Source of the DNA: an uncultured Actinomycetes bacterium
GTDB lineage: Bacteria; Actinomycetota; Thermoleophilia; Solirubrobacterales; Solirubrobacteraceae
Direction of reading: 5' to 3'
Length of the DNA stretch: 49,370 nt
NCBI GenBank assembly: GCA_937888775.1
Contig: CALAQT010000289.1
Coordinates: forward strand, 1 to 49,370
Below are positions 4,423-44,247 of this stretch, piece after piece; positions within the stretch are counted from its first letter, which is position 1, and the number at the start of each line of letters is the position of its first letter. The notes beneath the pieces were generated by a model, which saw only the letters and a program-made list of their open reading frames with translations, did not search any database and had not been told where the DNA came from. A program made the translations under genes and the position numbers.

Positions 4423-4498
<76 letters not shown>

Positions 4499-5428: not shown

Positions 5429-6799
5429 ATGGCGCATCTTCGGAAAATCACGATCGCCGGACTCTTCGGCCTCTACGATCACGACCTAGATCTGCGTCAA
5501 GATCCGCCGCTCACGATTGTCGCGGGGCCGAACGGCGTTGGGAAGACGACGCTACTGCGACTGACTACCGCGCTGCTCCGGGGCGCCTATCGAGAGCTGC
5601 TGCGGTACGAGTTCGGGACTCTCTCGGTTGAAAACGAGCTAGGCGCGACGATCGAGGTAGAACGCACGGCAGAGCGTGATCTGCCCAGCGAGGCAGCGCT
5701 ATTCACACTTCGATTCCGTCACGGCGTCGGGCCACCACAAGAGGCAACAATCGAAGTGCAGCCGCCGGTAGCTGACTTGATAGCGATGCCTGACTTCCTT
5801 GAGCACTACGACTCAGAAACGTTTGTCGACGTTCGCGATGGCGAACTGATCAGCGAAGACGATGTGCTGTTGCGCTGGGGTGGGCGGGTGCGCGAGCCGA
5901 TTCGCCCGCCGACGCCTCCGGACTGGTTTCACGCCGACGAATGGCGAGTCGACTTCATCGAGACAAAGCGGCTCGACACACTCCTCTCGAGTAGCCTAGT
6001 CGCGAGGCGGCCGGGTCCACGTCTGGGCCCGGGGGTCGCACATGTTGAACGCCGGGGATCACCAATCAACCGATACCTTCAGGTTGTTGCGAACTCTCTC
6101 GAAAATGCGCGTCTCGAGTCCGCGCGCATTAATCAGGCGCGTACAAGCACTGTGGCGCGGAGGCTGCTAGGCGAATACAGCAGTAAGACCGTCAACGTTG
6201 GGCGACTCCGTGAGCGGTACGCACAAGTTGAACGTCATGCGGCTGCCCTCACGGCAAACGGGCTACTCTCGGACAGCTTGGCGGCGCTTCCAGGGGGCAA
6301 GCTAAACCCGACGCAGAAGCGCTTCTTTGAGATGTTTCTCGACGACTTCGAGGCAAAGCTCGAGCCGCTCGATCCAGTGTCGGAAAAGCTCGAGCAGCTG
6401 AGATCCATCATCGGGCACAAGTTCTTGAACAAGGAGCTCGCAATCAGCCCCGAGCATGGCCTGACGTTCGCTGTTGAGCCCGCGGGCAACGAGATCGTCG
6501 CGGACTCCCTCTCGTCGGGGGAGCAGCACGAGCTGGCGCTGATTTCGCGTCTGCTCTTCGACGAGCGCGCTGGGACGACCGTCTTAATCGACGAGCCCGA
6601 GCTTTCGCTTCATGTCAGTTGGCAGCACGAGATGGTGGAGGACCTGCTGGAGATTGCGAGGGTGTCGGACGTGTCCTTCGTGCTCGCGACTCATTCGACC
6701 GCGATCATCAACAATCGTTGGGACATAGTTAATGAGCTAGGCCCACTCGATTTTTCTCCTGACGAGCGGGGGCAACACAAGACGAGTGTCGCGACGTAG
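5429..6799 (+). CDS. ariA: ABC-type AAA ATPase, PARIS AriA-like
   Basis: 456 aa. Walker A GPNGVGKTT lies at 33-41, very near the N-terminus as in the AAA_15/SMC-like group. A variable middle region (about 60-340) holds charged helical stretches. It is followed by the ABC signature LSSGEQ (361-366), Walker B LIDEPELSLH (386-395) and the switch histidine in ATHS (420-423). The downstream gene is a DUF4435 protein only 5 nt away, the arrangement of PARIS. In PARIS, AriA is known to form the ATPase scaffold that holds AriB and senses phage anti-restriction proteins. That assignment rests on architecture, length and partner, not on an alignment. Other two-gene OLD/Gabija-like systems are less likely because the partner lacks an OLD fusion or UvrD helicase. 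A TTA codon lies in the Walker B strand (6584-6586). Confidence 0.7.
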   Translation: MAHLRKITIAGLFGLYDHDLDLRQDPPLTIVAGPNGVGKTTLLRLTTALLRGAYRELLRYEFGTLSVENELGATIEVERTAERDLPSEAALFTLRFRHGVGPPQEATIEVQPPVADLIAMPDFLEHYDSETFVDVRDGELISEDDVLLRWGGRVREPIRPPTPPDWFHADEWRVDFIETKRLDTLLSSSLVARRPGPRLGPGVAHVERRGSPINRYLQVVANSLENARLESARINQARTSTVARRLLGEYSSKTVNVGRLRERYAQVERHAAALTANGLLSDSLAALPGGKLNPTQKRFFEMFLDDFEAKLEPLDPVSEKLEQLRSIIGHKFLNKELAISPEHGLTFAVEPAGNEIVADSLSSGEQHELALISRLLFDERAGTTVLIDEPELSLHVSWQHEMVEDLLEIARVSDVSFVLATHSTAIINNRWDIVNELGPLDFSPDERGQHKTSVAT

Positions 6800-6804
6800 G
6801 GGAG

Positions 6805-7671
6805 ATGGCGACGAGCCTCCAAACGGTCGTCGACCCTGTTGGGGACCTTGTCTCCCGCCTGCGACTCGACCGTTCTGCGCGAGCACGAGGCGCAGTCGTC
6901 GTGGAGGGACCGTCTGATCAACGTGCCTACTCGAGAGCCTTTGGCATCGACAGGCGAAACATCTTTCCCGCCGCGGGGCGGATCAATGTGCTTGGCGTCG
7001 CACGGGTATTAGCGGAGCGGCCCTTGAGTGGTGTGACTTGCGTTGTCGATCGCGACTTTGATGATGCCGCGTCTCGGCTCTCCGAGTTGGATTTCTTGGT
7101 CTTCTCTGATAACGCCGATATGGACATGATGTTGTTTGCGTCCGGGGTGTTAGATAGGGTGGTGGAAGCGTGGGGTACGCGAGCGAAGTTGAGGCAACTC
7201 GGAGGGACGGTCGCCCTCCGGACGCGCGTGTCGCAGTGCGTCGCGCCGCTATCAGCACTCAGGGCGGCGAACGTCGCCGAGCGATGGGGTGTCGCTTTCA
7301 GCACTTTGAAAGTCGTCGACGTAATCGATCAAGAGCTGCTAGAGCTAGAAATTCGCAGGGTGGCCGCAAAACTTGCTAACGCTCTTGTGTCGCCGGGCGA
7401 GCTGGAAGCGAGGAGTTCCGCTCAGCCGCCGACATGCCCCTCCACGGGGATGCCGCTGATGTCAGGCAAGGATGCGGCGGCGGCCGTGGATGCGGCGCTC
7501 AGGAAGCTCGTCGGAAACCTCTCGCATCAGCAGGTCAAGGACGGGGTGGTGGTTCGGAGCCTACGCGTGGGCGTCGGATATGGGGATCTCGCGGGTACCC
7601 CATTCGCCGAGCGCTTCGAGTCGGCCCTTGTGAGCGCTCTCGGACAGGCGACACCGGAGGGCGAGGGGTAG
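6805..7671 (+). CDS. ariB: DUF4435 / TOPRIM-like nuclease, PARIS AriB-like
   Basis: 288 aa with the acidic pattern of DUF4435: Glu in VVVEGPSDQRAY (E34, D38), then CVVDRDFDD (D82, D84, D86), then SDNADMDMMLF (D102, D105, D107), ordered as in a TOPRIM metal site. In known PARIS systems AriB is the toxic effector released from AriA after a trigger and cleaves host tRNA, stopping infection. The start ATG is 5 nt after the ariA stop with GGGGAG immediately upstream, so the two are translated together. Two TTA codons (7009-7011, 7150-7152) are present. The C-terminal third (about 190-288) is less conserved in type and contains a PPTCPSTGMP segment. Confidence 0.68.
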   Translation: MATSLQTVVDPVGDLVSRLRLDRSARARGAVVVEGPSDQRAYSRAFGIDRRNIFPAAGRINVLGVARVLAERPLSGVTCVVDRDFDDAASRLSELDFLVFSDNADMDMMLFASGVLDRVVEAWGTRAKLRQLGGTVALRTRVSQCVAPLSALRAANVAERWGVAFSTLKVVDVIDQELLELEIRRVAAKLANALVSPGELEARSSAQPPTCPSTGMPLMSGKDAAAAVDAALRKLVGNLSHQQVKDGVVVRSLRVGVGYGDLAGTPFAERFESALVSALGQATPEGEG

Positions 7672-8157: not shown

Positions 8158-8424
8158 TCGTAAGCGTCCTATCCGTGCAGCAAGCAGGGCACGGCCGTCA
8201 CCACGGATCTGACCCGGAGGGGAGACGCCTCCGGGCCTCGTCCGTGGTGCCTCGGCAACAACCCGAGTCGCCCGTCGTATCTCCCGCGAGTCGAGCCTCA
8301 CTACGAGAGAGGGATTCGACCGGCCACGACGCCCATCTATCGCCAACTCTACACTCATCGCAGGCGGAACGCGTACTCACCAAAGTCACCAACACACGTC
8401 CCATGCGATTGCTAGGATGCATTC
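8158..8424. other. Upstream region of the 1320-aa gene
   Basis: No gene. TAGGAT at 8413-8418 is a plausible -10 hexamer only 6 nt before the ATG at 8425, with no ribosome-binding site between, suggesting a leaderless transcript. This is inference from spacing. Confidence 0.35.
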
Positions 8425-11400
8425 ATGCCCGAAACCGACGAGAGCCTGCTTAACGTCCGCGAGACCGCCAGGCGTCTCAGCGTGCACGAGAACACGATCC
8501 GCAATTGGGCTCGGGACGGCATCCTGCCGTCGGCCCGCGTGCCCGGCTCGCGCTTTCACCGCTTCCGCCTCGAGGACGTCGAACGGCTCGTGCGCGAGCG
8601 AGGGAAGGCGGTCACTTCCGTCGAGCGCGAACGGCGGAGCGTCGGCCCTGAGCTCGTCACGGCCACCCAGCTCCACCAGTGGGCGGAGACCCGCGATGCT
8701 CAGGGTACCTTTCCCGAGCTGATCCGCCGGCTCGTCGCCGCCACCCCGGGCATCACCGGCCTCTCGCTGCGTTCCGGCGACGGCGTCTCGGTCCCGGGCT
8801 GGGATGGACGCGCGTCCTCCCAAGGCGCCGCCTACCTTCCCGACGGCGAGCTTCGCTTTGAGCTCGGCGTCGGGCGCGATCCCAAGCGCAAGGCCGACGC
8901 CGACTTCGAAAAGCGTACGCAGAGCCCGGCCGGCGCCGACCCCTCGGACGTCGTCTTCGTGTTCCTCACGCCACGACGCTGGGCCGGGGCGGAGGCCTGG
9001 GCCGACGCCCGCCGGACCCAGGGGGTGTTCGCCGACGTCCGCGCTATCGACGCTGACGCCCTCGAGGGCTGGCTACAGGCCGCCCCCGCGGTCCACTACT
9101 GGATCTCGGAGCAGCTGGGCCGCTCGCCGATCGACGTGCAGACGCTCGAGCGCTGGTGGACCCGGTTTCGAGCACGCACCAAGCAGCCCCTGCCCTCGGC
9201 GTTGTTTCTCGCTGGACGCCAGCCTCATGCGGAGGAGCTCGCGGCTTTCCTCGACGGGCCGCCAGGCGTGCTTGCGGTCCAGGCTGACTGGCACGAGGAG
9301 GCGATCGCGTTTGTAAGCGCCGCAATCGAGACGCGCGATGACCCCGCCCCGACGCTCCTCCTCTCCACTCCCGACACCTGGGAGCGGGTCCTGCGCGAGT
9401 CCCACGGCGCACGCCTGCTGCCTGTGTTCGCCGACCCCGACACGAGCGCGGTCGAGAGTGGCGAACATCACGTCATCCTCCCCCTCGGACGGGGAGAGGC
9501 CACGAGCGCGAGGAAGCTTGCCCTGCCACGCCCGGGCAGGATCGCGGCGGCCGAGGCCCTCCGCGCGGCGGACTTCCCCTACGCCGACTGCGACGACCTC
9601 GCCGCTCTGGCGCGCAGGAGCATGCCCTCATTCATGCGCCGGTGTGCCCGCGACACGCGCATCGCCCGGCCCTCCTGGGCCGAGCCGGCCAACGTCGCGA
9701 CAATCGCCCAGCTCGTGCTCCTCGGACGCTGGCGCACCACCGCCGGCGACACGGCGGTCGTCAGCAGCCTCGTGCAGCGCGACTGGGACTCGATCGAGCG
9801 CCTTCTCCTGCAGTGGCGCGAGAGCGACGACCCTCCGTTCGTCAAGTCCGGGAATCAGTGGCACGTGGCCTCTGCCGACGACGCATTCCTGTTCCTCAGC
9901 CCGAACCTCACCGCCGACGACCTCGAGCGCTGGCACGCGCTCGTCGCCGACGTGCTCCTGGTCGTCGATCCGCTGCTCGACCTTCCTCTCGATGAGAGGC
10001 CAACTGCCGGGCTGCGCGGCATCGAGCGCGAGCACTCACGCGAGCTTCGGGCCGGTCTCGCCGACGCCGTCGCCTTGCTCGGCGCTCTCGAGGACAAGCA
10101 GCTGGGCGACGGCAGGACCGGCGAAGAGCACGCCGCACGCGTCCTGCGCCAGCTCCTTCGTCAGGCCAACGCCGACGAGTCGGCACGCCTATGGGCCTCG
10201 CTCACTGATGTCCTGCCACGTCTTGCCGAGGCAGCACCGGAGGAGTTCCTCGAACTCCTCCGCGACGACCTCGCCCGCCCGGACCCGATCATGAGGCGCA
10301 TGTTTCAGGACCAGGAGCGCGACTCCTGGCTGATCGGTTCATCCCCGCACACCGGCCTCTTGTGGGCTCTGGAGACCGTCGCCTGGTCGCGCAAGCACCT
10401 GCTCGACGCATCCCGAGCTCTCGCGAGGCTCGCCGAGATCGACCCCGGCGGGCGACTCTCAAACCGTCCGTTGCGAAGCCTGCAGGCGATCCTCGTGGGC
10501 TGGATCCGCCAGACTGAGGCCCCCCTCGCCGAGAAGACGAACGCGATCCGCACGATCTGCCACGAACGGCCCGGAGTCGGCTGGGATCTCATCCTCGCCC
10601 TCTGGCCCGAAGCCCATGCCGTCATCACACCTCCCGCGTCTCCCGAGCACCGCGTGTGGGCCCCGGACACCAGAAGCGTCCCGATCGCCGACTGGGTGCA
10701 GTTCATTGCCTGCCTCCTCGAGAACGCCACCGAGCTTGCCGGACACGACGTCGAGCGCTGGGCCAAGTTGTCCGAGCGACTAGGAGCGCTGCCGCCCAAA
10801 CAGCGAACGGGGCTGATCGACGCTCTCGCCGACTTCGTACAGAGAAGCGAGCTCGCCGGCGAGGAGCGCCTCGCTCTGTGGGAGCGACTACGCAAGGAGA
10901 TCGCCCGCCACCGCAGGTTCGCCGCCGCTGACTGGGCGATGGACGAGCAGGTCCTTACCCGACTCGACGAGATCGCCGTCGTCCTGAAGCCCAGCGCCAG
11001 CGCCGAGCGCAACGCGTATCTATTCGACGGGCACCCGGACATCCCCGGCGTCGACGTGCTCGACCACACCCGCTACGACACCAAGCTCACAGAGCTCCGC
11101 GAACAGGCCGTCCGCGAGGTTGTCGCCGAGACCTCCATCGACGGGCTGCGCACGCTCGCACTGCGCAGCCCCGCCCCCCGTCACCTCGGCTGGCACATCG
11201 CGAAGCTCGCCCCTGAAGAGCTCACCCCCGACCTGCTCGCCTGGCTCGATTCCGACGAGGACGCCCTCCGTATCGTCGCGTCCCAGTGGGCCACTGCCAA
11301 CCTCTATGAGCAGGGCCCGCCGTGGCTGAGCAGGGCGCTTGCGCAGACCGCCGAGACCGCCACCGCACGGCGGACCGCCCTCGTGCTCAGCATGCCGCCC

Positions 11401-12387
11401 GTCCGTACGCTCTGGGACGCCCTCGCGCAGATCGCACCCGACCTCAGCGACACTTACTGGCGCCAGGCGCACGTCTGGCAGGTTCAGCCCGCCGACATTG
11501 AGCATGCCACCCGAGAGCTCCTCTCCCGCAACCGCGCCTGGATCGCCCTCGATGTGATCGGAGGACCCCTGCAGGGGCCAGACACCAACCTGAATGCGAT
11601 CAACCCCTCGCTCGTCTGCGATGTTCTCGACGCGGCCCTCACCGCCCCACCGAGCGAATCGCAGTCCCAGGTACCTGGCTACGAGCTCGGACTGCTGCTC
11701 GACTACCTTGAAGCGCAGGGCGTCGAGTCCCAGCGGCTCATCCAATACGAGTACGCGTTCTTCCGGGTTCTGGAGGACATCCGCAAGCCCCGAGCGCTGT
11801 TCGCCGCACTCGCCAACGACCCCGGCATGTTCGTCGAGCTCGCCTGCCGCGTCTACCGCGCAAACAACGAGCCACCACGCAAGCTGAGCGACGAGGAGAC
11901 CGCCCTCGCCACCCACTCGTGGTGGATCCTGCACGAGTGGCGAGAGCTCCCCGGGCGTCTCGAGAACCACGGGGTCGACGCCGAGCACCTCGGCACCTGG
12001 GTTAGTGCGGCGCGCGAGACGTTCGCCGAGCTCGACCGGGCTGAGATCGGCGACGAGCTCATCGGCCAACTCCTAGCCGCAAGCCCGGACGGCGAGGACG
12101 GTCTCTGGCCCGCCGAGCCCGTCCGGGATCTGCTCGAGAGCATCGCGAGCCCGCACCTCGAGTCCGGTGTCCATACCGGCGTCGTCAACGACCGCGGGTT
12201 TACGAGCCGCGGCGTGTTCGACGGCGGCGAACAGGAGCGAGACCTCGCCGCCCGCTACAACGAGCTCGCAACGCAAGCCTCCTCGAACTGGCCGCGGACG
12301 AGCCGCGTCCTCCGTCAGCTCGCTAAGAGCTACGAGCACGACGCCAGGCGCAACGACGAAGAAGCCGCCGTCAGGTCTAACACCTAG
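8425..12387 (+). CDS. Large HTH-led protein with nuclease-like N-domain and degenerate STAND-like core; candidate defence gene
   Basis: 1320 aa. Residues 8-60 are an excisionase/MerR-type helix-turn-helix (LLNVRETARRLSVHENTIRNW, then the FHRFRLEDVERLV wing). Residues about 95-215 hold GWDG (D127), then FELGVG (E146) with K154/K156, then DVVFVFLTPRRW, a spacing compatible with a PD-(D/E)xK nuclease. Residues about 255-400 (LAGRQPHAEELAAFL...) look like an NTPase module of the STAND type but without a GKT/S loop. The remaining 900 residues are helical repeats rich in Trp and Leu. No signal peptide or membrane helix is seen. I recall this overall type as a large uncharacterised family in bacterial accessory regions, but no function can be named. 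Alternatives are a phage-sensing Avs-like protein or a DNA-bound regulator. Confidence 0.6.
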   Translation: MPETDESLLNVRETARRLSVHENTIRNWARDGILPSARVPGSRFHRFRLEDVERLVRERGKAVTSVERERRSVGPELVTATQLHQWAETRDAQGTFPELIRRLVAATPGITGLSLRSGDGVSVPGWDGRASSQGAAYLPDGELRFELGVGRDPKRKADADFEKRTQSPAGADPSDVVFVFLTPRRWAGAEAWADARRTQGVFADVRAIDADALEGWLQAAPAVHYWISEQLGRSPIDVQTLERWWTRFRARTKQPLPSALFLAGRQPHAEELAAFLDGPPGVLAVQADWHEEAIAFVSAAIETRDDPAPTLLLSTPDTWERVLRESHGARLLPVFADPDTSAVESGEHHVILPLGRGEATSARKLALPRPGRIAAAEALRAADFPYADCDDLAALARRSMPSFMRRCARDTRIARPSWAEPANVATIAQLVLLGRWRTTAGDTAVVSSLVQRDWDSIERLLLQWRESDDPPFVKSGNQWHVASADDAFLFLSPNLTADDLERWHALVADVLLVVDPLLDLPLDERPTAGLRGIEREHSRELRAGLADAVALLGALEDKQLGDGRTGEEHAARVLRQLLRQANADESARLWASLTDVLPRLAEAAPEEFLELLRDDLARPDPIMRRMFQDQERDSWLIGSSPHTGLLWALETVAWSRKHLLDASRALARLAEIDPGGRLSNRPLRSLQAILVGWIRQTEAPLAEKTNAIRTICHERPGVGWDLILALWPEAHAVITPPASPEHRVWAPDTRSVPIADWVQFIACLLENATELAGHDVERWAKLSERLGALPPKQRTGLIDALADFVQRSELAGEERLALWERLRKEIARHRRFAAADWAMDEQVLTRLDEIAVVLKPSASAERNAYLFDGHPDIPGVDVLDHTRYDTKLTELREQAVREVVAETSIDGLRTLALRSPAPRHLGWHIAKLAPEELTPDLLAWLDSDEDALRIVASQWATANLYEQGPPWLSRALAQTAETATARRTALVLSMPPVRTLWDALAQIAPDLSDTYWRQAHVWQVQPADIEHATRELLSRNRAWIALDVIGGPLQGPDTNLNAINPSLVCDVLDAALTAPPSESQSQVPGYELGLLLDYLEAQGVESQRLIQYEYAFFRVLEDIRKPRALFAALANDPGMFVELACRVYRANNEPPRKLSDEETALATHSWWILHEWRELPGRLENHGVDAEHLGTWVSAARETFAELDRAEIGDELIGQLLAASPDGEDGLWPAEPVRDLLESIASPHLESGVHTGVVNDRGFTSRGVFDGGEQERDLAARYNELATQASSNWPRTSRVLRQLAKSYEHDARRNDEEAAVRSNT

Positions 12388-12425
12388 CAAGGGCGTGCAA
12401 GGACCCCGGCAGACGTGCGGGTGGG

Positions 12426-12752
12426 TCAGCCGCGCGGTTCGGCTCTACGGACGAGCTCGTTGATCATCGGCCGGCGGGTCTTGGGTGGCAGGCTGCGCAG
12501 GATTGCCGGCCGCTTGGCCGCCGGGAATATGCTCAGCATCTCAAGATCCCCGGTCACGGCCTGAAGCGCCGAGACCGCTTGGGCGAGCTCGTCGGACGGG
12601 GGCTGACGGTCGTGAAGCGCGAGCAGATGGTGGATAACCTGCACCGCGACAGCCTCGACTGGCGCGTCCTGGAACGTCCGCTCGGCAATCCTTCGCAGCG
12701 GGCGCGCGCCAGAACCCTCTGGCTTTGCGCTGATCTTGCGCGGAGACCACAA
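12426..12752 (-). CDS. Hypothetical small helical protein
   Basis: 108 aa at most, convergent with the 1320-aa gene and divergent from the relaxase. The C-terminal 70 residues read as regular helices (VQVIHHLLALHDRQPPSDEL, then MINELVRRAEPRG) with coding-like codon use. The N-terminal 30 residues are poor, so the true start may be an internal GTG. No domain is recognised. The position beside the relaxase and candidate oriT suggests an accessory mobilisation or regulatory protein; this is inference. Confidence 0.45.
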   Translation of the reverse strand: MWSPRKISAKPEGSGARPLRRIAERTFQDAPVEAVAVQVIHHLLALHDRQPPSDELAQAVSALQAVTGDLEMLSIFPAAKRPAILRSLPPKTRRPMINELVRRAEPRG

Positions 12753-12826
12753 GCAACCGGGCGGGCCGCCGGGCGCCTGTCAGCCCGCCCGCCCGCGCGG
12801 TCACGTTGGCTTCCGCGCCCGCCGGC

Positions 12827-12858
12827 GGACAGCACGAAGAACGGACAGCACGAAGAAC
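12827..12858 (+). repeat. Tandem 16-bp repeat upstream of the relaxase
   Basis: GGACAGCACGAAGAAC occurs twice head-to-tail with no gap. It is preceded by GC-rich near-inverted repeats (about 12755-12800). Relaxase genes of this class usually have their oriT just upstream, so 12753-12945 is the place to look for a nic site. Confidence 0.55.
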
Positions 12859-12900
12859 AGACCAGATGCACGGGTGTGCGGTCGCTGTGCGAGTGCTGTG

Positions 12901-12937
12901 CAATTCGTTGGCCGTTTTGGGGCGCTCAGGGTCATCA
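12901..12937 (+). promoter_or_regulatory. Leader shared with the excisionase gene, copy 1
   Basis: 37 nt containing CGTTGGCCGTTT and GGGTCAT, about 86% identical without gaps to 22676-22712 in front of the excisionase-like gene. Both end shortly before the proposed start codon. Conservation at the DNA level in front of two unrelated proteins suggests a common regulatory element. Confidence 0.6.
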
Positions 12938-12950
12938 CATATGTGATGAC
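12931..12950. promoter_or_regulatory. Perfect 20-bp palindrome over the relaxase start
   Basis: Half-site GTCATCACAT is followed directly by its reverse complement, and the relaxase ATG (12946) lies in the right half. A dimeric repressor bound here would block both transcription and translation start. The excisionase leader keeps the GTCAT half but not the palindrome. Confidence 0.6.
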
Positions 12951-15597
12951 GGCAGCGAGCATCCCTGCGTCCGGAGGCGGCGGCTACGCCCGCTACCTGG
13001 AGAGCAAGACGGTCGCACCCGAACGCGGGGACTACTACCTGACCCCGGACGGCGAGATGACCCAGGCGCCGGGTCGTTGGCTCTCCGATAGGGAGACGCT
13101 AACGAGGCTCGGGGTGCAGGCGGGCGAGCCGGTCGATGGTGCGGACTTCATCGCGTTGATGGATGGTCGCCACCCGGGCACCGGCAGGTGGCTGCGACCC
13201 GAGGGCGCCGGTGGCGGCAGGGGTGGCGGGATCGACGTGACGTTCAGCGCCCCGAAGTCCGTCTCGACGGTGTGGGCACTCGGCGACCCGTGGCAGCGCG
13301 AGCAGATCGAGGCCGCGCACGCCAGGGCAGTGGAGAGCGCGGTCGGGTATCTCCGCGAGCAGGTTCCGGTCGTGCGCCGCCGCTACGGCGGCCAGGTCGT
13401 GGAGGAGCACGCCAAGGATGTCATCGCCGCGGAGTACCGGCACACGACCGCCAGGGGAGTCAGCGGGGCGCAGGCCCCCGATCCGCAATTGCACAGTCAT
13501 GTCGTGATCAGCGGCGCGGTGAGGGAAGACGAGAGGATCGTCGCGATCGCTTCGCGGCCGATCTTCCGCTCGGCCCGCGAGCTTGGAGCGTTCTACCGCT
13601 CATCGCTCGCCGAGGAGCTGGCCGGGGAGGGCTATGAGATCGAGCGCGGGACGGGTAAGGACGGCCGGTACTTCGAGATCGCTGGGGTGCCACGCGAGCT
13701 GATCGAGGAGTTCTCAGGGCGCAGCCGCGAGGTCGCCAGAGCTGCGGAGCGTTTCCGTGCCCGCCACGGCCGGGCACCGGAGCGCGGCGAGCTACGCAAC
13801 CTGGCGCTCGAGAACCGCCGCGCCAAGGAGCTGACGACCCGCGGGGACCTGCAGCGGGTGTGGAGCCAGACGGGCCGTCGCCACGGGTTCGGGCCCGACG
13901 AGACCGTGCGTCTGATCGGAGCGCCCGAACTGCCAAAGGTCGAGCGTCCCGTCGCGGATCGCATCGAGGCGAGGCTGACCGAGCAGCACGCCGTCTTCCA
14001 GGCACGTGATCTGCACGCGGTAGCGCTGGAGCAAACAGCCGGCGAGATGCCACCGGAGCAGGCGCTTGCAGTAGCTCGCGAGATGGTCCGTGACCGGCGG
14101 GTGCTCACCCTGGAGGGCGGGCGGATGACGACGCTCGCCGTGCGCGCCCAGGAGCAGGCGATCGAGCGCCGTGCTGAGCTGCTCGCCCAGCCAACGGGCC
14201 GGGATGTCGGCGAGCGCGCTCGCGCAAACGCCGTGCGTGAGGTCTCCGAACGCATCGGAGGCCCATTGAGCCCGGAGCAGAATCACGCGCTGCGAGTCCT
14301 CACGGGTCCCGAGCGTGCCGCGGTGCTCGTCGGCCCGGCCGGAACCGGAAAGGGCGTGGTGATCGACGCCGCCGCCCGCGCCGAGCAGCACGCCGGCCGC
14401 CACACGATCGGGATCGCCGTGTCCGGGTCCACCGCTGAGCGGCTCGGAGCCGACAGCCCAGCACTAACCGACCGGACGCTGACGCTCGACTCGCTGGCCG
14501 CCCGCGCCAAGACGGGGACCGTCGAGATCGGCCGGGCCACGACGGTCTTCCTCGACGAGGCCGGAATGGTCGATCACAAGCGCATGGATGCCCTCACCGA
14601 GCTGGTCGAGCGCTCCGGAGCAAAGCTGATCGCCGTCGGTGACGGCAAGCAGCTCCCCTCGATCGGGCCGGGCGGGATGTTCGACCGGCTCGCCACCCAT
14701 ACCCCAACCGCAGAGCTCACCGACATCCGCCGCACCCAGGACCCCGACGAGCGCAGGGCATGGGCCGCCCTTCGGGCCGGCGAACCTGAGCGCGCGATGG
14801 CGCACTACTTCAGCCGCGCACAGCTGCATTTCTCGGACACTCGCGACGAAGCCGGTGAGGCGGCCATCCAGCATTGGATGACGCTCGCCGGGAAGCACGG
14901 CATACGCCAGGTCGCGTTGATTGCCGACGCCTCCAACAAGGAGATCGACCGACTCAACGCTCGCGCCCAGCACCTCCGGGCTGAGCGCGGCGAACTCGGC
15001 CACCGTGAGATCCCGCTCGGAGACACCCACTACGGGTTGCGTGAAGGCGACATCGTCGCCTTCACATCCCGACATCGCTCAGCGGGGCAGCCACGGGTGG
15101 AGAACGGAACCCGCGGCCAGGTCACACGCGTAAGCGATCACGGCGGCCTGATGGTGGAGCTGGACGGCTCAGGCCGTTCGGTGCGCCTCGCCGGCGAGGA
15201 CATTGACTCGCTGCGGCTCGGCTACGCCCAACACGTCTATCGCCAGCAGGGCGCAACGGTCGAGCGGACCGTCGTGGTGACCGGCGGCTGGCAGACGAGC
15301 AAGGAGAGCGCCTACGTCGAGGCTACCCGTGCACGCCAGGGGACCGACTGGTTCCTCGCGCGCGAGGAGCTCGGCAGCCAGGGGCAGGACGCCGACCGCG
15401 TCATGCAGCTCGCACGCAGGATGGGCACCAGCCGAGCGCAGACACCCTCGCTCGCCTACGAGCCCTACGACCCTGCGTTCGGCCCCGGCTACGACCTCGG
15501 GCCGCCGCGAATCCTCCGCGTCCCGGCCATCCTGATGCGCTCCAGCCGCAATCACGACCGCTCGATGGTCGACCGCAACGTCGATCGCGGACGCTGA
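12946..15597 (+). CDS. MobF-family (TrwC/TraI-like) conjugative relaxase-helicase
   Basis: 883 aa. The N-terminal relaxase domain (1-300) has candidate catalytic tyrosines (Y14, Y17 and the pair Y30-Y31) and the HUH metal site as H166 plus HSH (183-185) in DPQLHSHVVISG. The C-terminal helicase carries Walker A GPAGTGKG (about 461), Walker B FLDEAGM (about 534), VGDGKQLPSIGPGG, and motif VI-like VEATRARQGTDWF. It nicks oriT, stays covalently attached and unwinds the strand for transfer. The frame is open upstream to 12736, but family proteins start close to this MTAAS segment, so ATG 12946 (or GTG 12943) is chosen. No transfer ATPase or pore gene accompanies it, so it probably uses another element's machinery. 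Confidence 0.9.
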   Translation: MTAASIPASGGGGYARYLESKTVAPERGDYYLTPDGEMTQAPGRWLSDRETLTRLGVQAGEPVDGADFIALMDGRHPGTGRWLRPEGAGGGRGGGIDVTFSAPKSVSTVWALGDPWQREQIEAAHARAVESAVGYLREQVPVVRRRYGGQVVEEHAKDVIAAEYRHTTARGVSGAQAPDPQLHSHVVISGAVREDERIVAIASRPIFRSARELGAFYRSSLAEELAGEGYEIERGTGKDGRYFEIAGVPRELIEEFSGRSREVARAAERFRARHGRAPERGELRNLALENRRAKELTTRGDLQRVWSQTGRRHGFGPDETVRLIGAPELPKVERPVADRIEARLTEQHAVFQARDLHAVALEQTAGEMPPEQALAVAREMVRDRRVLTLEGGRMTTLAVRAQEQAIERRAELLAQPTGRDVGERARANAVREVSERIGGPLSPEQNHALRVLTGPERAAVLVGPAGTGKGVVIDAAARAEQHAGRHTIGIAVSGSTAERLGADSPALTDRTLTLDSLAARAKTGTVEIGRATTVFLDEAGMVDHKRMDALTELVERSGAKLIAVGDGKQLPSIGPGGMFDRLATHTPTAELTDIRRTQDPDERRAWAALRAGEPERAMAHYFSRAQLHFSDTRDEAGEAAIQHWMTLAGKHGIRQVALIADASNKEIDRLNARAQHLRAERGELGHREIPLGDTHYGLREGDIVAFTSRHRSAGQPRVENGTRGQVTRVSDHGGLMVELDGSGRSVRLAGEDIDSLRLGYAQHVYRQQGATVERTVVVTGGWQTSKESAYVEATRARQGTDWFLAREELGSQGQDADRVMQLARRMGTSRAQTPSLAYEPYDPAFGPGYDLGPPRILRVPAILMRSSRNHDRSMVDRNVDRGR

Positions 15598-22982: not shown

Positions 22983-24146
22983 ATGGGTAGGCGCTCCTAC
23001 GGCAGCGGTCGTCTCTTCGAGCGAGCCGACGCGGCTGGGCGGGTGAGCTGGTACGGCTCGTGGTGGTCCGGCGGCACGCGCGTCAAGCGCAAGATCGCCG
23101 CCAAGCGCACCCCGGGCACCGCGGACGGACTCACGCGTGCCCAGGCCGAGCAGGAGCTGCGCAAGCGCATAGAGCGGGACGTGATCGTGTCGGGCGCCGC
23201 CAGGCGCACGTTGGAGGAGGCCGGCGGCGCCTACGTCGATCATCTTGAGCACGTGATGGAGCGCAAGCGCTCCACGATCCAGGATTACCGGGGACATCTG
23301 CGACGTCATCTCGTGCCGTTCTTCGGCGAGCGGCCGATCGACAAGATCGAGCCAGCCCAGGTCGTGCAGTACCTCAAGCGCAAGCGCAGCGACGGCCTGT
23401 CCTCAAAGACCGTCCAGAACCACCTGAACTTCCTCCACGGCGTGTTCGCGTTCGCGATCAAGCGCGGCTGGGCACAGAGCAACCCGGTCGCCTACGTCGA
23501 TCGCCCCAAGAAGAACCGCTCTCCCCACCAACGCGTCCGATTCCTACAGCCACCCGAACTTGACAAGCTGATCGCCGCGGTGCCGGAGGACACCCTCGGC
23601 GGGATCGAGCGGGCGCTGTACCTGGCCGCCGCGCTCACCGGGCTGCGCCAGGGCGAGCTGCTCGCGCTGAAATGGCTCGACATCGACTGGCAGGTCGCGC
23701 GGGTACGCGTCGCCGACAACGTCACGCGCGGGCAGATGGACACCCCCAAGTCCCACGAAGGCCGATCGGTTCCGATGGCCGCGCGACTTGCCCGTGAGCT
23801 TGAAGACCTACGCCGACGCTCCCGGTTCCCCGCAGACAGGGATCTCGTCTTCTGCCACCCCGACACCGGGCATGTCCTCGACCCTTCCAAGATGCGCAAG
23901 CGCTTCAAGGATGCCCTCGCCGAGGCAGGCGTACACGAGATCACCTTCCACGAGCTCCGCCACACCTTCGGCACGCAGATGGCCGCCGCCGGCGCCCCGC
24001 TACGCGCGATCCAGGAGTGGATGGGCCACGCCGACGCGAAGACCACCGAGATCTACCGCCACTACGCGCCCGACCCATCCAATGGGGCGGCGTTCGTCGA
24101 ACGGGCATTTGGCAGCGGAGATCACGCTCCGTCCGACGCCGCCTGA
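22983..24146 (+). CDS. int: Tyrosine recombinase / phage-type integrase
   Basis: 387 aa. The arm-binding N-terminus (1-70, with GRRSYGSGRLFERADAAGRV) is followed by a SAM-like core-binding domain (about 75-165) and a catalytic domain (about 185-365). All active-site residues are visible: Arg in TGLRQGELLAL, Lys in PKSHEGR, His-x-x-Arg in FHELRHTFG, His in MGHADAKTTEIY, and Tyr in YRHY. It should integrate and excise island 1 at tRNA-fMet. Oddly, it lies about 8.5 kb inside the island rather than next to an attachment repeat. Confidence 0.93.
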   Translation: MGRRSYGSGRLFERADAAGRVSWYGSWWSGGTRVKRKIAAKRTPGTADGLTRAQAEQELRKRIERDVIVSGAARRTLEEAGGAYVDHLEHVMERKRSTIQDYRGHLRRHLVPFFGERPIDKIEPAQVVQYLKRKRSDGLSSKTVQNHLNFLHGVFAFAIKRGWAQSNPVAYVDRPKKNRSPHQRVRFLQPPELDKLIAAVPEDTLGGIERALYLAAALTGLRQGELLALKWLDIDWQVARVRVADNVTRGQMDTPKSHEGRSVPMAARLARELEDLRRRSRFPADRDLVFCHPDTGHVLDPSKMRKRFKDALAEAGVHEITFHELRHTFGTQMAAAGAPLRAIQEWMGHADAKTTEIYRHYAPDPSNGAAFVERAFGSGDHAPSDAA

Positions 24147-24471: not shown

Positions 24472-24546
24472 ATGTCGGACAGTAGCCCTGGCTTCGGATG
24501 CTTCTCTCGCTCGGGGTTCCGCCGCCTCGCTCGTTGCGGGATTCTG

Positions 24547-27500
24547 ATGTCCGCCGCGTCGATCTCGCCAGGACTCCAAGCTCTCGCGGCGCTGCTCGAC
24601 GAGCCGGCTGGGCGCTACCGGGAGCTCAACGGGGCACGGCACGTCGGGGAATACCTCGACCGCGCGAGAACCCGCGAGGATGAGGAGCTGCTCACGGAGC
24701 CCATTCTGGCGGCGCTCATCGAGCGCGTGCTCGGGTTTCCTACGGACGCCTACTTCCCGCAGCTGGGCCGCAGCGGCCTGAAGCCCGACTTCACGCCCAT
24801 CGACCTTGTGGCGCATCGGTTTGTGCTCGACGCCAAGAGCTCTACCCAGGATCTCGGGCCGCACGAGCGCCAGATCCGCGCATACATCGACCAGCGCCAC
24901 CTCGACTACGGGGTGCTGTTCAACCTCCGCGAGCTGAGGGTCTACCGGCGCGGCGCGAGCGGACACGATCCCAGCCTTTCCTTCGATGTTCGACGCCTTT
25001 GGCAGGTGGCTCACGGCGAGGCGCTCGACATCGACGAGGTCGATCGGTTCGTCCGCTTCTGTGGCCTATTCGGCTTCCGCGCGATGGGGGTTGACGAGAA
25101 GATCGCGCTTGTCGCAGAGGCCGAGCCCTGGCGTGAGCGGGCCGCCGTGGACGAGGCGCTCCAGATCGACGTGGAGTTCCTGGTCAGCCAGCTGCGCTCA
25201 CTTTCGAGGCAGCTCGCCGAGGACGCAGCCGCCCAGCACGACCGGCTCCTGGCTGATCTCGACCTCAACCCCGACCACGAGCAGCGGCTGCGCTTGGAGC
25301 TCGAGACACTCGCCCGGGAGATCGAGCCAGGCGTCGACATCACGGCCCTACCCACGACCGTCGCCGGCTATCGAGACGCAGATGGGATTGCTCGCCGTGC
25401 CTTCTCGCAATACCTGATGCGAGTCTCCCAGCTCGCCCTGACCCGCATCCTCCTCTACCGCTCCTGGGAGGACGCCGGCTTCGTCGAGGACTGCCTCTAC
25501 GACGGCGGCTTCGAGCACGTCTATGAGCGAATGGGGCACAACCTCCAGCGCGTGCTCGATGAGGCCTTCCAGCGCGGCCGTGCTCGCTACCGCTGGCTGT
25601 TCGGCGAGGACAACAACTACGACTGGTTCCGGCCACGGGACGAGGCGTTGGCTGATGTGCTCTACGCGCTCGTGCCATTTCCGCTCGCGCGCCTGGGCGC
25701 GGACGTGCTCGGTGGGCTGTACGAGTCCTACGTCGATGAGATCGACCGTGACCGACTCGGCCAGTTCTACACCCCGCGTGCGGTGGTCCGGTTCATGCTC
25801 GACCGCGCCGGGTTCGCCGGACCCGAGGGAGTCTTTCGGATCGAGGGGGACGAGCGGCACGAGCGGGCCATCTTCGACTTCGCTACCGGCTCAGGGGGCT
25901 TCCTCGTCGAGGCCGCCCGCCGTGTGATCGACGATGGTGGGCTTGATCTCAGCGACCCACGTGATCTGCGCGAGGGTCTTCGGTCGATCGTGCGCGGATT
26001 CCATGGCTGTGAGATCAGTCCCTTTCCGTACTACCTCACCGAGGTCAACCTGCTGCTGCAGGTCTCGCGTCTGCTCGGAAGATTGCGCGAGGTGGGAGAG
26101 GAGCCCGGCACATTCACGCTCGGGGTCGTACACACGGACTCGCTAGGTGCCCGTCGTGGCCCGGACGACAGCTTTGGTGAGCTCGATGCGACACAGCGCA
26201 AGGACGCCGCGCTGCTTGCGTCCGACGAGCGTTACGGGATCGTGCCGCTTGACGCGGCGAAGGAGCCGCGGTTTGCGGAGATTCGGAGGGACGGCGTCTT
26301 CGACCTTGTTGTCGGCAATCCGCCCTACGTGTCCGAAGCGGGTAACAAGGTCCTCTTCGATCGTCTGCGTGCACTGCCCGGCTGGAGCAGCGATCACCAC
26401 GGAAAGAGTGACTACCTCTACTACTTCCTTGCGATGGCCGCGGAGAAGCTTGCGCCCGGAGGCCGCCTCTGTGTCATCACCCCGGCTGGCTGGATGAACG
26501 CCGGCAATGCGGGCTGGCTGCGCGACCGACTTGCGTCGAGTCTGCGTCTCGACGAGCTGTATCTGTTCGGCAGCATGCGGCTCTTCGCTACCGAGCAGCA
26601 GGAGCGGGACGTGCGCGTGGGCATGAAGGCGCCGACCGTCGAGAGCGCCATCCTGATTGCCACGAAGGCGCAAGTGCCAGCGCGTCACCATCTTCGAGTC
26701 GTGCTCCTAGAGAACGAGGCTGAGGCTGCGGCTGCAATTACAGGCGACCACGACGCGCGCGTGAGCCCGCGAGAGCTGCTGCTCGAGGTGATGGCCCAGC
26801 GTGCAGCCGGCCGTGCTGGGCGCGCAAACGGGATACTCGTCCACAGCGTGGCGCAGCGGGACCTGCGCTCGGCGCAACCGTGGCCCGTCAAGCACGGGTC
26901 GCGTGACGTTGCGACGCGCGTCGTGGCCCATCTCCAGTCGCAGCTCGACGATAACGCTGCACCTGTCGAGCGACTCGGCGAGCGCTGGGTCGTCGCGTCA
27001 GGGATTGAGACCGGAGCGGATGCCTACACCGCGAGGGTGCAGAAACGTCTCGACGAGCAAACACGCTCAGATTTTGCGCGGCGTGGGTTCCGCACAGGAG
27101 CCCCAATTTTGCAGCTCCCGGCTGGGGCTGAGCGAGGTAGTCCGTGGCGTGATCATCCCGACCTGCTTGCCCGTGCTCCGGAGGCGCGCGCGATTCTTTA
27201 CGGGGCGATCGATGACGCGGACTACACCAGCTTGGTCTGGATCGGTCGCGACACTGAGCCGCCACGGGACATCATCGACGCCCTCGAGCCATGGCGAGAT
27301 GTGCTGCGAAGCCGTGCCGAGTTCGCCCGCAACTCGCGGCGCCGATGGTGGGAGACGGCATGGCCGCGCGATCGCGCTGCGTTGCGGGGTCCGAAGGTCA
27401 TTGCGCTCCATCGGACCGATCGCGGTCGATTCGCGGTCGATACGGATGGCTCGTGGCAGGCTGCGAAGAACGCAACGACCGTCACGTCACGCGATGGCGA

Positions 27501-28362
27501 ACTCCCGGTGGCGTATCTCTGCGGTCTCCTCAATAGCGAGCTGCTCGATCTCTGGTACGCGCTTCGCGGTCGAACGCCACGTGATGTGTGGAGGGACTAT
27601 GAGCCCAAACCGATGCAGGAGATTCCGTACCGACACGTCACGGTCCCGGAAGGGTGGTCGCCAGGCGGCGACGCTGCAAGGCTCATCAAGGCGCTGGCGG
27701 CCGGCGACAATCGGACAGAGCTTGGGCACTCCGCGACCGTCATGGCGGCCGTGGGCTCAGGGTCAGGCGACGCGGACGCAGTTGCAGCCATCGAGGCTCT
27801 CGTATTGGCCATCGCAGCCAACCGGCGGACGCTCCTACCATTCCGCTCGGTGGCGCCGGAGTTGCGGCGCGCGGTGAAAAATCCGTGGCGAACGCATGGA
27901 GTCGAGGTCGATCGTTCCGCCGTACTTGCTGAGTTGCCCGGGACGGCCGTGCGGTCTGTGCGCCTTGATCCTGAGCTCGCGGTGAACATCACGACCGACG
28001 GGGTGCTTGGTCGCCGCCATCTGGAGGACGACACGCTGGTCTTCACGCATTCACGTCGGGTAACAGCGCGCGTGGCCGGTCCGCACGACCGTCTCGCACT
28101 CCTGCAGGACCTGCTCGGCGCCGGCCGGCTGATGCCCGAGGATCTGCTCGCCGGGCGGATGCCTACCAGCCTCGGTGCTTTCAGTGAAGAGGTCGCGTGT
28201 CGGCAGGGCGAGATCGACGATCTGCTCGCGGTCGGGCGGGAGCTCGTGGAGATTGTCGAGCGCCTGGTATGCGCTCTCTACGGGGTTCCCGATGCCCTGA
28301 CGGATTTGGTGGTCGAGAGTGCGGTCACGCGAGCCGGTACCGTCGCCCAGCAAGAGGAGTGA
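24547..28362 (+). CDS. Single-chain restriction-modification enzyme (type IIG, Eco57I-like)
   Basis: 1271 aa. Residues about 50-130 form a PD-(D/E)xK nuclease: KPDF (D81) then FVLDAKSS (D95, K97) then QRHLDYGVLFNLRELRVYRR. A helical linker leads to the N6-adenine methylase core: GQFYTPRAVV (about 404), motif I FDFATGSGGFLVEAARR (about 443), motif IV VVGNPPYVSEAG (about 590). The last 400 residues contain the target-recognition region (WIGRDTEPPRDI, GELPVAYLCGLLNSELLDLW). One protein can therefore both modify and cut. PglX of BREX is similar in the methylase half but lacks this nuclease domain, and no pglZ or brxL is present. ATG 24547 is chosen; the frame opens at 24472 but those residues look non-coding. 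Convergent with mcrC. Confidence 0.85.
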   Translation: MSAASISPGLQALAALLDEPAGRYRELNGARHVGEYLDRARTREDEELLTEPILAALIERVLGFPTDAYFPQLGRSGLKPDFTPIDLVAHRFVLDAKSSTQDLGPHERQIRAYIDQRHLDYGVLFNLRELRVYRRGASGHDPSLSFDVRRLWQVAHGEALDIDEVDRFVRFCGLFGFRAMGVDEKIALVAEAEPWRERAAVDEALQIDVEFLVSQLRSLSRQLAEDAAAQHDRLLADLDLNPDHEQRLRLELETLAREIEPGVDITALPTTVAGYRDADGIARRAFSQYLMRVSQLALTRILLYRSWEDAGFVEDCLYDGGFEHVYERMGHNLQRVLDEAFQRGRARYRWLFGEDNNYDWFRPRDEALADVLYALVPFPLARLGADVLGGLYESYVDEIDRDRLGQFYTPRAVVRFMLDRAGFAGPEGVFRIEGDERHERAIFDFATGSGGFLVEAARRVIDDGGLDLSDPRDLREGLRSIVRGFHGCEISPFPYYLTEVNLLLQVSRLLGRLREVGEEPGTFTLGVVHTDSLGARRGPDDSFGELDATQRKDAALLASDERYGIVPLDAAKEPRFAEIRRDGVFDLVVGNPPYVSEAGNKVLFDRLRALPGWSSDHHGKSDYLYYFLAMAAEKLAPGGRLCVITPAGWMNAGNAGWLRDRLASSLRLDELYLFGSMRLFATEQQERDVRVGMKAPTVESAILIATKAQVPARHHLRVVLLENEAEAAAAITGDHDARVSPRELLLEVMAQRAAGRAGRANGILVHSVAQRDLRSAQPWPVKHGSRDVATRVVAHLQSQLDDNAAPVERLGERWVVASGIETGADAYTARVQKRLDEQTRSDFARRGFRTGAPILQLPAGAERGSPWRDHPDLLARAPEARAILYGAIDDADYTSLVWIGRDTEPPRDIIDALEPWRDVLRSRAEFARNSRRRWWETAWPRDRAALRGPKVIALHRTDRGRFAVDTDGSWQAAKNATTVTSRDGELPVAYLCGLLNSELLDLWYALRGRTPRDVWRDYEPKPMQEIPYRHVTVPEGWSPGGDAARLIKALAAGDNRTELGHSATVMAAVGSGSGDADAVAAIEALVLAIAANRRTLLPFRSVAPELRRAVKNPWRTHGVEVDRSAVLAELPGTAVRSVRLDPELAVNITTDGVLGRRHLEDDTLVFTHSRRVTARVAGPHDRLALLQDLLGAGRLMPEDLLAGRMPTSLGAFSEEVACRQGEIDDLLAVGRELVEIVERLVCALYGVPDALTDLVVESAVTRAGTVAQQEE

Positions 28363-28425: not shown

Positions 28426-30054
28426 CTACCTCAGCTCCGACGACGTCAGGAGTTCTGCAATGAGCTTCGGTAGGCCGCTGCCCTGCTGTGAGCCGGGACG
28501 GCACGCAATTGCTCCGACGCCACGGAATCCATCTCGGTCGGGATCAGGGCGATCTGCCCAAGGCACGTCGTACTTGCGCGGCGCCGAGGCCGACCCTGGA
28601 TATAGGACCCACACGCTGTCGGCACCGATCGCGTCGCGGTAGGCATGCATCTTGTGGAGATCCCCCCGCCTGAACGTGTCGATAGGCGCGTCGGGCTCGT
28701 CGACGTCATCCCCGGCGAACGCGGCGAGGAGCTCACGCTTGAGCTTCGCGTCGAATAGATGCAACGCCCCCGCGGGTCCGCGGACCGTGATGTCGGGGCG
28801 CAGGCGGACCGAGTACGAGTGCCGTCCTCGCTTCGCCGGGATGCCAGGTGGTCGCGAGAAGGTGGCGTTGAAGAGAACGTCGACCGGGCCGCAGCGTGCG
28901 CAATAGCCGTACGGCACGTGGGTTCCGAGTGCAGTCGAGGCGAGCCGGCCCACAACGGCTCGCTCGCCGACCACCTGCTCAACGGCATCGACGACTTGGA
29001 AGTAGCACCAGTACTCGTAGATCAGTGCGGCGTCACGGAGCTCGAGTAGCGCTCGCATGTCGTGCGGCTCAACCAAGCGCGTGCGCGCCAGGAGGTCGCC
29101 GTAGCACCTGAGCAGCTCGCGGTAGCCCGGGCGGCCACGCAGGACGGTCGAGTGATGCGGCACCTCGCGCGCCGGCCGGAGCTGCTCGAGCGCGCGATGG
29201 CGCCGCCAGCGCTGCAACTGGTCGGCGATGCCGGCGGCCTCCTGCGCGTTGATCGTGCTCGTCGCGCGCCCGCTCGTGCGCGCGAGGCGCTCGAACTGGC
29301 GGGCGATGTCGGTCATCGCGTCCAAGGCGGCTACGACGAAGCGATTCTCAACGGTGTCGGTCGTGTGCTCCAGCGGACGTAGGCGAACGAACTCGGGCAT
29401 TCGCCCTTTTAGTCGTTGAGCTAGCAGATGACTGCTGAGCGGAGAATCTCGCGCGACGGATGCGAGCAGCTCTGGCTCGCTCTGGATCGCATGCAGCGTC
29501 GCGGCATCGATCCGGTCAGCGCGCCCGAGCGGGATCAGCCGTGGATCCTCGCTTCGGAGCGTTTCGTGGGGGCGCGCGAGGATGCGCTGGGCCGCACTCG
29601 GGAGATTGTGGGGCCCCCGAGCAGCCATGCTGTCGCGCAACAGCACATAGGCGTGGTAGAGCGCGTCAGGACCGATCCTCCGGTCGCGTGCGTAGGGGGC
29701 GGCAGTCGGCGTTGTCGCGCCGAATGGGAGAGACGCGAGTCGGTCGGCAACCACCTCCAGCATGTGCTCCACCGCGCCAGCACCGAGACGCTTGCTGCCG
29801 ACAATCAGTCGCCGGCCGCCGAGTTCGGCGGTGCCGATGAAATTTCCGAACTGCAGCACGCCCTCCGTGCCGCCGTATGGGATGGTCATGGCGCCCGACA
29901 GGACGTGCGGATCACTGCCGTGACCGAATCGGACGAGGTAGCGCTCCTCTGCCATCAGCTCTAGGGCGCCATCCTCACGCTTGCTCAGGTGGCCGCCTGC
30001 CGGTGCGACCAATTCATATGGGCCGCATTGCGAGCTCGCGACTGTCTCGGTCAT
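28426..30054 (-). CDS. mcrC: McrC-like nuclease subunit (DUF2357 / PD-(D/E)xK)
   Basis: 542 aa. The N-terminal half (about 40-300) has the DUF2357-like pattern (GVLQFGNFIGTAELGGRRL, then LEHTTDTVENRFVVAALDAM). The C-terminal nuclease has LRPDITVRG followed by LHLFDAKLKREL (Asp, then DAK) and a RGDLHKMHAYRDAIGA helix. It should be the cutting subunit driven by the GTPase of the upstream gene in a modification-dependent (type IV) restriction system. The start ATG overlaps the mcrB stop (ATGA), so the pair is translationally coupled. Confidence 0.8.
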   Translation of the reverse strand: MTETVASSQCGPYELVAPAGGHLSKREDGALELMAEERYLVRFGHGSDPHVLSGAMTIPYGGTEGVLQFGNFIGTAELGGRRLIVGSKRLGAGAVEHMLEVVADRLASLPFGATTPTAAPYARDRRIGPDALYHAYVLLRDSMAARGPHNLPSAAQRILARPHETLRSEDPRLIPLGRADRIDAATLHAIQSEPELLASVARDSPLSSHLLAQRLKGRMPEFVRLRPLEHTTDTVENRFVVAALDAMTDIARQFERLARTSGRATSTINAQEAAGIADQLQRWRRHRALEQLRPAREVPHHSTVLRGRPGYRELLRCYGDLLARTRLVEPHDMRALLELRDAALIYEYWCYFQVVDAVEQVVGERAVVGRLASTALGTHVPYGYCARCGPVDVLFNATFSRPPGIPAKRGRHSYSVRLRPDITVRGPAGALHLFDAKLKRELLAAFAGDDVDEPDAPIDTFRRGDLHKMHAYRDAIGADSVWVLYPGSASAPRKYDVPWADRPDPDRDGFRGVGAIACRPGSQQGSGLPKLIAELLTSSELR

Positions 30055-32282: not shown

Positions 32283-32543
32283 GATCCGCGAGCCTACCCG
32301 GCCCGACCTGCGAACGCGAGCGACGCCTTGTACCGATCGGGCCTCTCGTTCGGTGCGAGGGACCCTCTCAGTCGCCGCCTCGGACGGGCATCGGGCCGCC
32401 TCAGCAACTAGCGTGTCGTCGAACACTGGAATTGCCGTGAAGCAGGCATCCACTCATCCAAAGTGGCGCTGGTGCTCTCCGCGTCGTTGCTCGTGCGACG
32501 AGACCTGGTCCCTGGCGCCTGGTCCCGGTGATACAGGCTCCCT
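32283..32543. other. Right end of island 1 upstream of mcrB
   Basis: No gene. It should contain the mcrB promoter (minus strand). Confidence 0.4.
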
Positions 32544-32649: not shown

Positions 32650-32693
<44 letters not shown>

Positions 32694-43379: not shown

Positions 43380-43706
43380 GTGAGTGCAGTGGCAGTCGAA
43401 GCGATGATCGAGCGCGCTGGGCGCGCCTTGATCGACGCAGCGCCCGCGCCGGCGAAGGTGGTCCTCTTCGGCTCGCATGCTCGCGGAGACGCTGACGACG
43501 GGAGCGACCTCGACTTCCTCGTCATCGAGGCCGAGGTGGGGGACCGTCTCGCTGAGACAGTCAGGCTCCGACGTGCCCTTGGGGACCTTGGCGCCCCGGT
43601 TGACGTGATCGTCATGGACGCAGCGCTCGCGGAGCGGCGTTCGAAGGTCCGGGGCACAATGGTGGAGCGCGCTCTGCGCGAGGGGCGCGTTGTCGCCGAG
43701 TCCTGA
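43380..43706 (+). CDS. MNT-type nucleotidyltransferase antitoxin
   Basis: 108 aa from GTG 43380 with AGGGGG about 8 nt upstream; a longer frame starts at ATG 43329. The minimal nucleotidyltransferase signature is intact: VVLFGSHARGDADDGSDLDF (GSxxRG, D-x-D) and a third Asp in PVDVIVMD. In HEPN-MNT modules this protein adds AMP groups to the HEPN toxin to silence it. It overlaps the HEPN frame by 17 nt. Confidence 0.8.
   Translation: MSAVAVEAMIERAGRALIDAAPAPAKVVLFGSHARGDADDGSDLDFLVIEAEVGDRLAETVRLRRALGDLGAPVDVIVMDAALAERRSKVRGTMVERALREGRVVAES

Positions 43707-44203: not shown

Positions 44204-44247
<44 letters not shown>

Follow-up and report, generated by a model that had tools for sequence, protein, structure and literature searches.

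A candidate single-gene antiviral nuclease receptor with a degenerate STAND module and a fused DNA-binding domain

STAND receptors are regarded as switches driven by ATP. Can such a receptor work after its STAND module has lost the ATP-binding site? This question is raised by a gene on contig CALAQT010000289.1 (GenBank assembly GCA_937888775.1) of an uncultured Actinomycetes bacterium of the family Solirubrobacteraceae. The whole 49,370-nucleotide stretch that was analysed is referred to as the window. The gene encodes a 1320-aa protein that combines a helix-turn-helix (HTH) domain, a nuclease domain, a degenerate STAND module, a winged helix and a long alpha-solenoid (Table 1). Judging from sequence comparisons and predicted structures, we lean, with moderate confidence, towards a single-gene antiviral nuclease receptor of the PD-lambda-4A/Avs type that has lost its nucleoside triphosphate (NTP) switch and is autoregulated by its HTH.

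The open reading frame (ORF) is a real gene, and AlphaFold models of its product reached predicted local distance difference test (pLDDT) values of 90 and 93. The original prediction, confirmed in part as a whole, proposed an excisionase-type HTH, a PD-(D/E)xK domain with D127, E146 and K154, a STAND-like module without a working P-loop and a long helical-repeat part. The HTH has a BldC-like winged fold, the N-terminal part adopts a nuclease-like fold, the P-loop is missing, and the repeats form a HEAT/ARM-like solenoid. D127 and E146 held as well; K154 did not, the conserved lysine being K156.

Table 1. Coordinates of the gene, its domains and key residues, the upstream signals and other features of the same element in the window
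Feature	Position	Strand	Basis or remark
1320-aa HTH / nuclease / degenerate STAND / winged helix / HEAT-like protein	8425..12387	+	ORF
BldC/excisionase-type winged HTH, residues 6-60	8440..8604	+	
PD-(D/E)xK-type nuclease domain, residues 78-236	8656..9132	+	
D127, invariant	8803..8805	+	
E146, invariant	8860..8862	+	
K156, near-invariant lysine; its helix follows the strand with E146	8890..8892	+	
Degenerate STAND/AAA+ module without Walker A, residues 244-412	9154..9660	+	
Winged-helix part, about residues 425-500, boundary approximate	9697..9924	+	secondary structure
HEAT/ARM-like alpha-solenoid, about residues 501-1320, probable sensor	9925..12384	+	
9-bp direct repeat ACTCACCAA / AGTCACCAA (ACTCACCAAAGTCACCAA), probable operator of own HTH	8375..8392	+	shuffle test
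TAGGAT, putative -10 box, 6 nt before ATG (leaderless layout)	8413..8418	+	
Left 44-bp attachment (att) repeat, 3' half of tRNA-Met (4423-4496)	4455..4498	+	
Right 44-bp att repeat, exact copy, bounds the 28.2-kb element	32650..32693	+	
PARIS-like pair: AriA 5429-6799, AriB-like DUF4435 6805-7671	5429..7671	+	same element
TrwC relaxase/helicase	12736..15597	+	same element
Tyrosine integrase	22983..24146	+	same element
N6_Mtase/Eco57I-type methylase	24472..28362	+	same element
DUF2357/PDDEXK_7 protein 28426-30054 and partner 30051-32453	28426..32453	-	partner matches PDC-M26A

In the mechanism that we propose, the solenoid would sense a component of an invader. Binding of this ligand would cluster or unlock the N-terminal nuclease domain, and the domain would then cut DNA and stop the infection, a response that the cell itself would probably not survive. 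Because the P-loop is missing from the STAND module, in contrast to PD-lambda-4A and Avs, we expect activation to be independent of ATP binding by the protein itself; the module may be a scaffold or a surface for nucleic acid or ligand. The HTH would bind the 9-bp direct repeats that immediately precede the leaderless promoter of its own gene, and this autorepression would keep a dangerous nuclease at a low level.

The nuclease domain shows the alpha-beta-beta-beta-alpha-beta core of the PD-(D/E)xK superfamily, and its closest folds are FokI and MspJI. D127 and E146 are unchanged across 87 aligned sequences. The conserved K156 lies outside the ExK position, and a relocated catalytic lysine is known in this superfamily. 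The same domain heads 15 other proteins (P0141-P0155; E 1e-33 or better with our own hidden Markov model, HMM), mostly from Azospirillum-like sources where these are named. All 15 have an intact P-loop; in the Azospirillum locus L101 (8350-11547) the nuclease is fused to a P-loop STAND. The solenoid of the window family shows no similarity to them, and in 13 of them its place is taken by precomputed PF13374, a TPR family.

The degenerate module has an alpha/beta core of the AAA+ type, and a winged helix comes next, as in STAND/AAA+ proteins; R265 and R405 are well conserved. Walker A was absent at the P-loop site in all 140 full-architecture proteins; the motif is present in the positive controls (15/15 of P0141-P0155 and 8/8 PD-lambda-4A relatives). 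Passages of PMC7159879 (Kaur et al. 2020) and PMC8195603 (Kaur et al. 2021) describe dead STAND modules in iSTAND, iSTAND2 and nSTAND2 systems, which likewise combine them with swappable effectors, including TIR and, for nSTAND2, HEPN. According to these passages, such systems are multi-gene, with a MoxR-vWA or an active STAND partner, whereas the window gene has its own nuclease and lacks a recurring partner. Neither kind of partner is among the recurring neighbours in 78 loci, where no search with MoxR or vWA models was made.

PD-lambda-4 is said, in work by Vassallo et al. in 2022, to protect E. coli from phage. A passage of PMC10952713 lists it under P-loop NTPases. One of seven variants of our family that were scanned, L087, touched the PADLOC model PD-Lambda-4_A (E 3.1e-4). 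In hhalign comparisons with the PD-lambda-4A family, the solenoid reached 96.3% over 543 columns and the nuclease 86.6% over 139 columns, the winged-helix part 5.8%; the controls gave 0.1-0.3% for reversed sequences and 0.3% for the solenoid against the Azospirillum family. PD-lambda-4A (PDLC03990/PDLC03991) has the same order of a PD-(D/E)xK-like N-domain, STAND position and long alpha-solenoid, and its relative L159 likewise carries an N-terminal HTH-like stretch (by eye). However, PD-lambda-4A keeps Walker A (in all eight fetched relatives that include the region) and has a Q-x-K nuclease motif (by eye); GWDG aligns with its D, E146 with the Q and G148 with the lysine of this motif. We take it that PADLOC models a second gene B for PD-lambda-4A; around our family no partner recurs in 78 loci (at most 5/78 per neighbour cluster), gene B itself not having been searched for. 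The proposal of an undescribed defence system stands in part. The nuclease and the solenoid look remotely homologous to those of the defence protein PD-lambda-4A, with the P-loop lost, a resemblance and not proof. Avs4 and Avs5 are the best Foldseek matches of the model of residues 1-650. They share the succession of a nuclease or other effector, STAND, winged helix and helical sensor; the window protein differs from Avs by the missing P-loop, a HEAT-like and not TPR sensor, and low whole-model TM-scores.

Residues 80-1320 are matched (E<=1e-3) by 456 of 7995 scored candidates, a lower bound. An alignment-based scan of species genomes found 262 relatives among 376 matching stretches. The 80 that we kept (L007-L086) come from Actinomycetota, Bacteroidota, Pseudomonadota, Bacillota, Chloroflexota, Acidobacteriota, Planctomycetota and other phyla. 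With tblastn we obtained 22 plasmid records (11 conjugative, 5 mobilizable, 6 non-mobilizable), with hosts including Rhizobium, Shewanella, Cupriavidus, Arthrobacter and Adhaeribacter, and a single phage record with a match covering 31%; viral contigs gave 12 matches, one of them to the HTH alone. In whole genomes, the winged HTH-solenoid profile (E<=1e-3) was found in 4/198 Actinomycetota, 13/296 Bacteroidota, 7/321 genomes of the class of G020 and 10/289 of the class of G016; each of these counts contains the centre genome, which was picked as a carrier, and a small number of hits that are weak or broken. The distribution of the family is sparse, yet it extends across many phyla and often involves plasmids.

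Domains were called with four own HMMs (nuclease, degenerate STAND, winged-helix part, solenoid), and most fetched members have these domains in this order. TIR replaces the nuclease in L057 (PF13676, 28.7 bits, cut-off 28). Another, unnamed N-domain stands without any STAND module in L088-L092, L097, L100, L102, L105 and L107, several of which are near-identical. A HEPN-like RNEHYH domain (by eye) is a separate ORF in L112 and L113, and L095 and L099 have no fused effector and a small HetE-N gene upstream (PF20701, E 5.6e-33 and 1.5e-40). The parts of the family recombine, and the effector position is swapped. In L112 (2-520 and 510-3095) and L113 (7524-8168 and 8158-10740) the HEPN-like ORF and the solenoid body share an 11-nt overlap, which may reflect coupled genes or a programmed frameshift. 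In L048 a 404-aa nuclease-STAND fragment (9989-11203) lies directly upstream of a full-length copy (11231-15079).

The N-terminal HTH shares the fold of BldC (6ama, 33% identity over 54 residues), and both are associated with 9-bp direct-repeat sites; passages of PMC5859096 state that BldC subunits each bind 9 bp and that the sites are direct repeats. However, BldC is a free 68-residue regulator, whereas the window HTH is fused to a 1250-residue effector-sensor body. The window repeat agrees at 8 of 9 positions at period 9 (p 0.002, 400 dinucleotide shuffles). Its 15-mer 8378-8392 has no other exact copy within the window; the sole other match there lies on the opposite strand at 43579 with 3 mismatches. 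In the 60 bp upstream of each locus, 9-bp direct repeats (p<=0.05) occur in 14/18 BldC-class loci including the window, 1/20 loci without HTH and 1/15 Xre loci; the 14 are not independent, because some are close kin (L015/L016, L008/L020). The BldC-class pattern, by eye, is (A)GTCCACAA / AGTCCACAA followed by a TAnnnT box 6 nt from ATG, and the TAGGAT-type layout was seen by eye in many HTH_17-class relatives. The Xre class has TCATAT/ATATGA at the start in 16/19 loci against 1/18 and 4/20 in the other classes, a count weakened because base composition differs between HTH classes; inverted repeats (p<=0.05) occur in 5/19 against 0/18 and 0/20.

By pattern and eye, the N-termini of 114 rows were labelled as 18 BldC/HTH_17-type, 18 Xre-type, 5 HigA-type, one other MerR-like, 4 with another extension, 53 without HTH and 15 without nuclease. 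On a FastTree tree of 107 rows (7 near-copies dropped), in which some long branches meet, the HTH label changes 11 times and the nuclease/other label 3 times. Every HTH class comes with a particular site at the promoter of its gene, which is expected of an autoregulator, and the HTH is most likely a fused autoregulator. The annotation of the Shewanella baltica plasmid member (L152, 152-4264) as 'HigA family addiction module antitoxin' evidently goes back to the HTH at its N-terminus. MAD1 of the MADS system was considered and rejected: only the 55-residue HTH matches PADLOC mad1, and the NCBIfam MAD1 score of 18 bits falls short of the cut-off of 80.

A 28.2-kb integrative element at tRNA-Met carries the gene as cargo, together with other defence genes. 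The PARIS-like pair matches PADLOC models (AriA 8e-22, AriB 2e-6; DUF4435 is below the Pfam cut-off). The DUF2357/PDDEXK_7 pair we take to be McrBC-like, and its partner protein matches the candidate family PDC-M26A at E 3.6e-44. The methylase has a weak similarity to MADS mad2 (E 9.6e-21). A third exact 44-bp tRNA-Met copy (44204-44247) marks an 11.5-kb segment in tandem after the element. The gene was originally said to stand alone between two defence modules. Across 78 loci each recurring neighbour was seen in 5 at most; the gene thus forms a single-gene unit carried by mobile DNA. The widest neighbour clusters are an integrase and an ABC transporter (both by eye), rhizobial AbiEi/AbiEii and a recombinase. 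Rhizobial members lie divergently beside AbiEi/AbiEii (L004 10093-11609, L145 4094-5609, L146 4091-5625, L056). An abortive-infection, restriction or similar defence gene is named nearby in 8 plasmid neighbourhoods (L002, L004, L100, L145, L146, L148, L149, L150) out of 16 viewed among 22, of which 15 are annotated, with flanks of 6-15 kb and without a control set. Around 20 chromosomal loci PADLOC reported AbiEi/AbiEii, HamA, a GajB-like protein, a type II restriction enzyme with methylase, SoFic and PDC families, whereas 20 control regions of the same genomes matched mostly helicase and ATPase models.

Several results weigh against a receptor of the PD-lambda-4A/Avs type. Defence genes occur at several loci, but the models matched number 122 near the gene and 54 in the controls, which is suggestive and no clean count of the expected enrichment. 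The residue two after E146, the canonical position of the ExK lysine, is G148. The degenerate STAND shows no sequence homology to that of PD-lambda-4A (0.8% in profile comparison) and reaches 18.7% with the P-loop STAND of the Azospirillum-type proteins, over a 22-column GR motif only. The lead to PD-lambda-4A comes from L087 alone among the seven variants, and no PADLOC model of PD-lambda-4A is hit by the window protein (P0001), even with the threshold relaxed to E 1. HMM scores against PD-lambda-4A relatives are low: the two best matches of the solenoid have 18.5 and 19.5 bits, and four sequences match the nuclease with 11-14 bits. The hhalign E-values refer to a single template and the hmmsearch E-values to nine sequences. 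TM-scores to Avs4 are also low, 0.26 of the query. As for autoregulation, the HTH is absent in 53/114 rows, several upstream regions are mutually related, and the BldC consensus AATTxxxxC differs from the window repeat.

A wider reading, possible but tentative, is an NLR-like receptor class without an NTP switch, in which ligand binding by the solenoid alone triggers any attached effector and the fused promoter-binding domain (BldC, Xre, HigA) is interchangeable. In this reading the P-loop was eroded in the main branch; the STAND module is absent in others, namely in ten fetched loci with another N-domain and in the HEPN-like and HetE-N versions. Each type of DNA-binding domain would have a matching operator at the start of its own gene, and clustering on infection could strip the HTH from the promoter, raising expression exactly when needed.

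It is unlikely that the protein is a restriction-like enzyme, whose HTH, degenerate STAND or solenoid reads foreign (e.g., modified) DNA directly and whose nuclease then cleaves that DNA, with neither a receptor step nor cell death. The FokI- and MspJI-like fold would suit such an enzyme, as would the nucleic-acid-receptor role that a passage of PMC8195603 proposes for inactive STAND modules. However, no methylase recurs as a neighbour in the 78 loci, the effector position accepts TIR and HetE-N, which are not DNA readers, and the body resembles PD-lambda-4A and Avs. We regard as quite improbable an NTP switch acting in trans, for which the protein would have to form a hetero-oligomer with an active STAND/AAA+ protein from another locus. 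The published nSTAND2 gene pair, with one inactive partner and HEPN or GT4 effectors (a passage of PMC8195603), offers a precedent, and the conserved R265 and R405 would fit; but there is no conserved adjacent ATPase, with neighbour clusters covering at most 5/78 loci, and the STAND module is wholly absent in ten fetched loci. Carriage on a 28-kb integrative element and on plasmids (22 records, 11 conjugative), with AbiE and toxin-antitoxin genes among the neighbours, could point to a weapon in conflicts among mobile elements, directed against plasmids or integrative elements or stabilising its own element, that is not primarily antiphage. This is very improbable: most known defence systems travel likewise, and PD-lambda-4A is reportedly antiphage. 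MalT-like proteins are transcription regulators of the STAND-HTH type, and a regulator with a decayed nuclease would explain an HTH at one end of a STAND-like body and repeats at its own promoter, but it is hardly credible given invariant D127/E146, swapped effectors and 53/114 rows that keep nuclease and body without HTH.

Dead STAND modules are already known, but in multi-gene systems; here one appears to belong to a single gene with its own nuclease. If the gene is indeed a nuclease receptor without an NTP switch, NLR-like immunity in bacteria does not always need an NTPase of its own, and comparison with PD-lambda-4A would allow a direct test of what the NTPase does. In that case the fused class-specific autoregulator would be a simple answer to the problem of silencing a suicidal nuclease.

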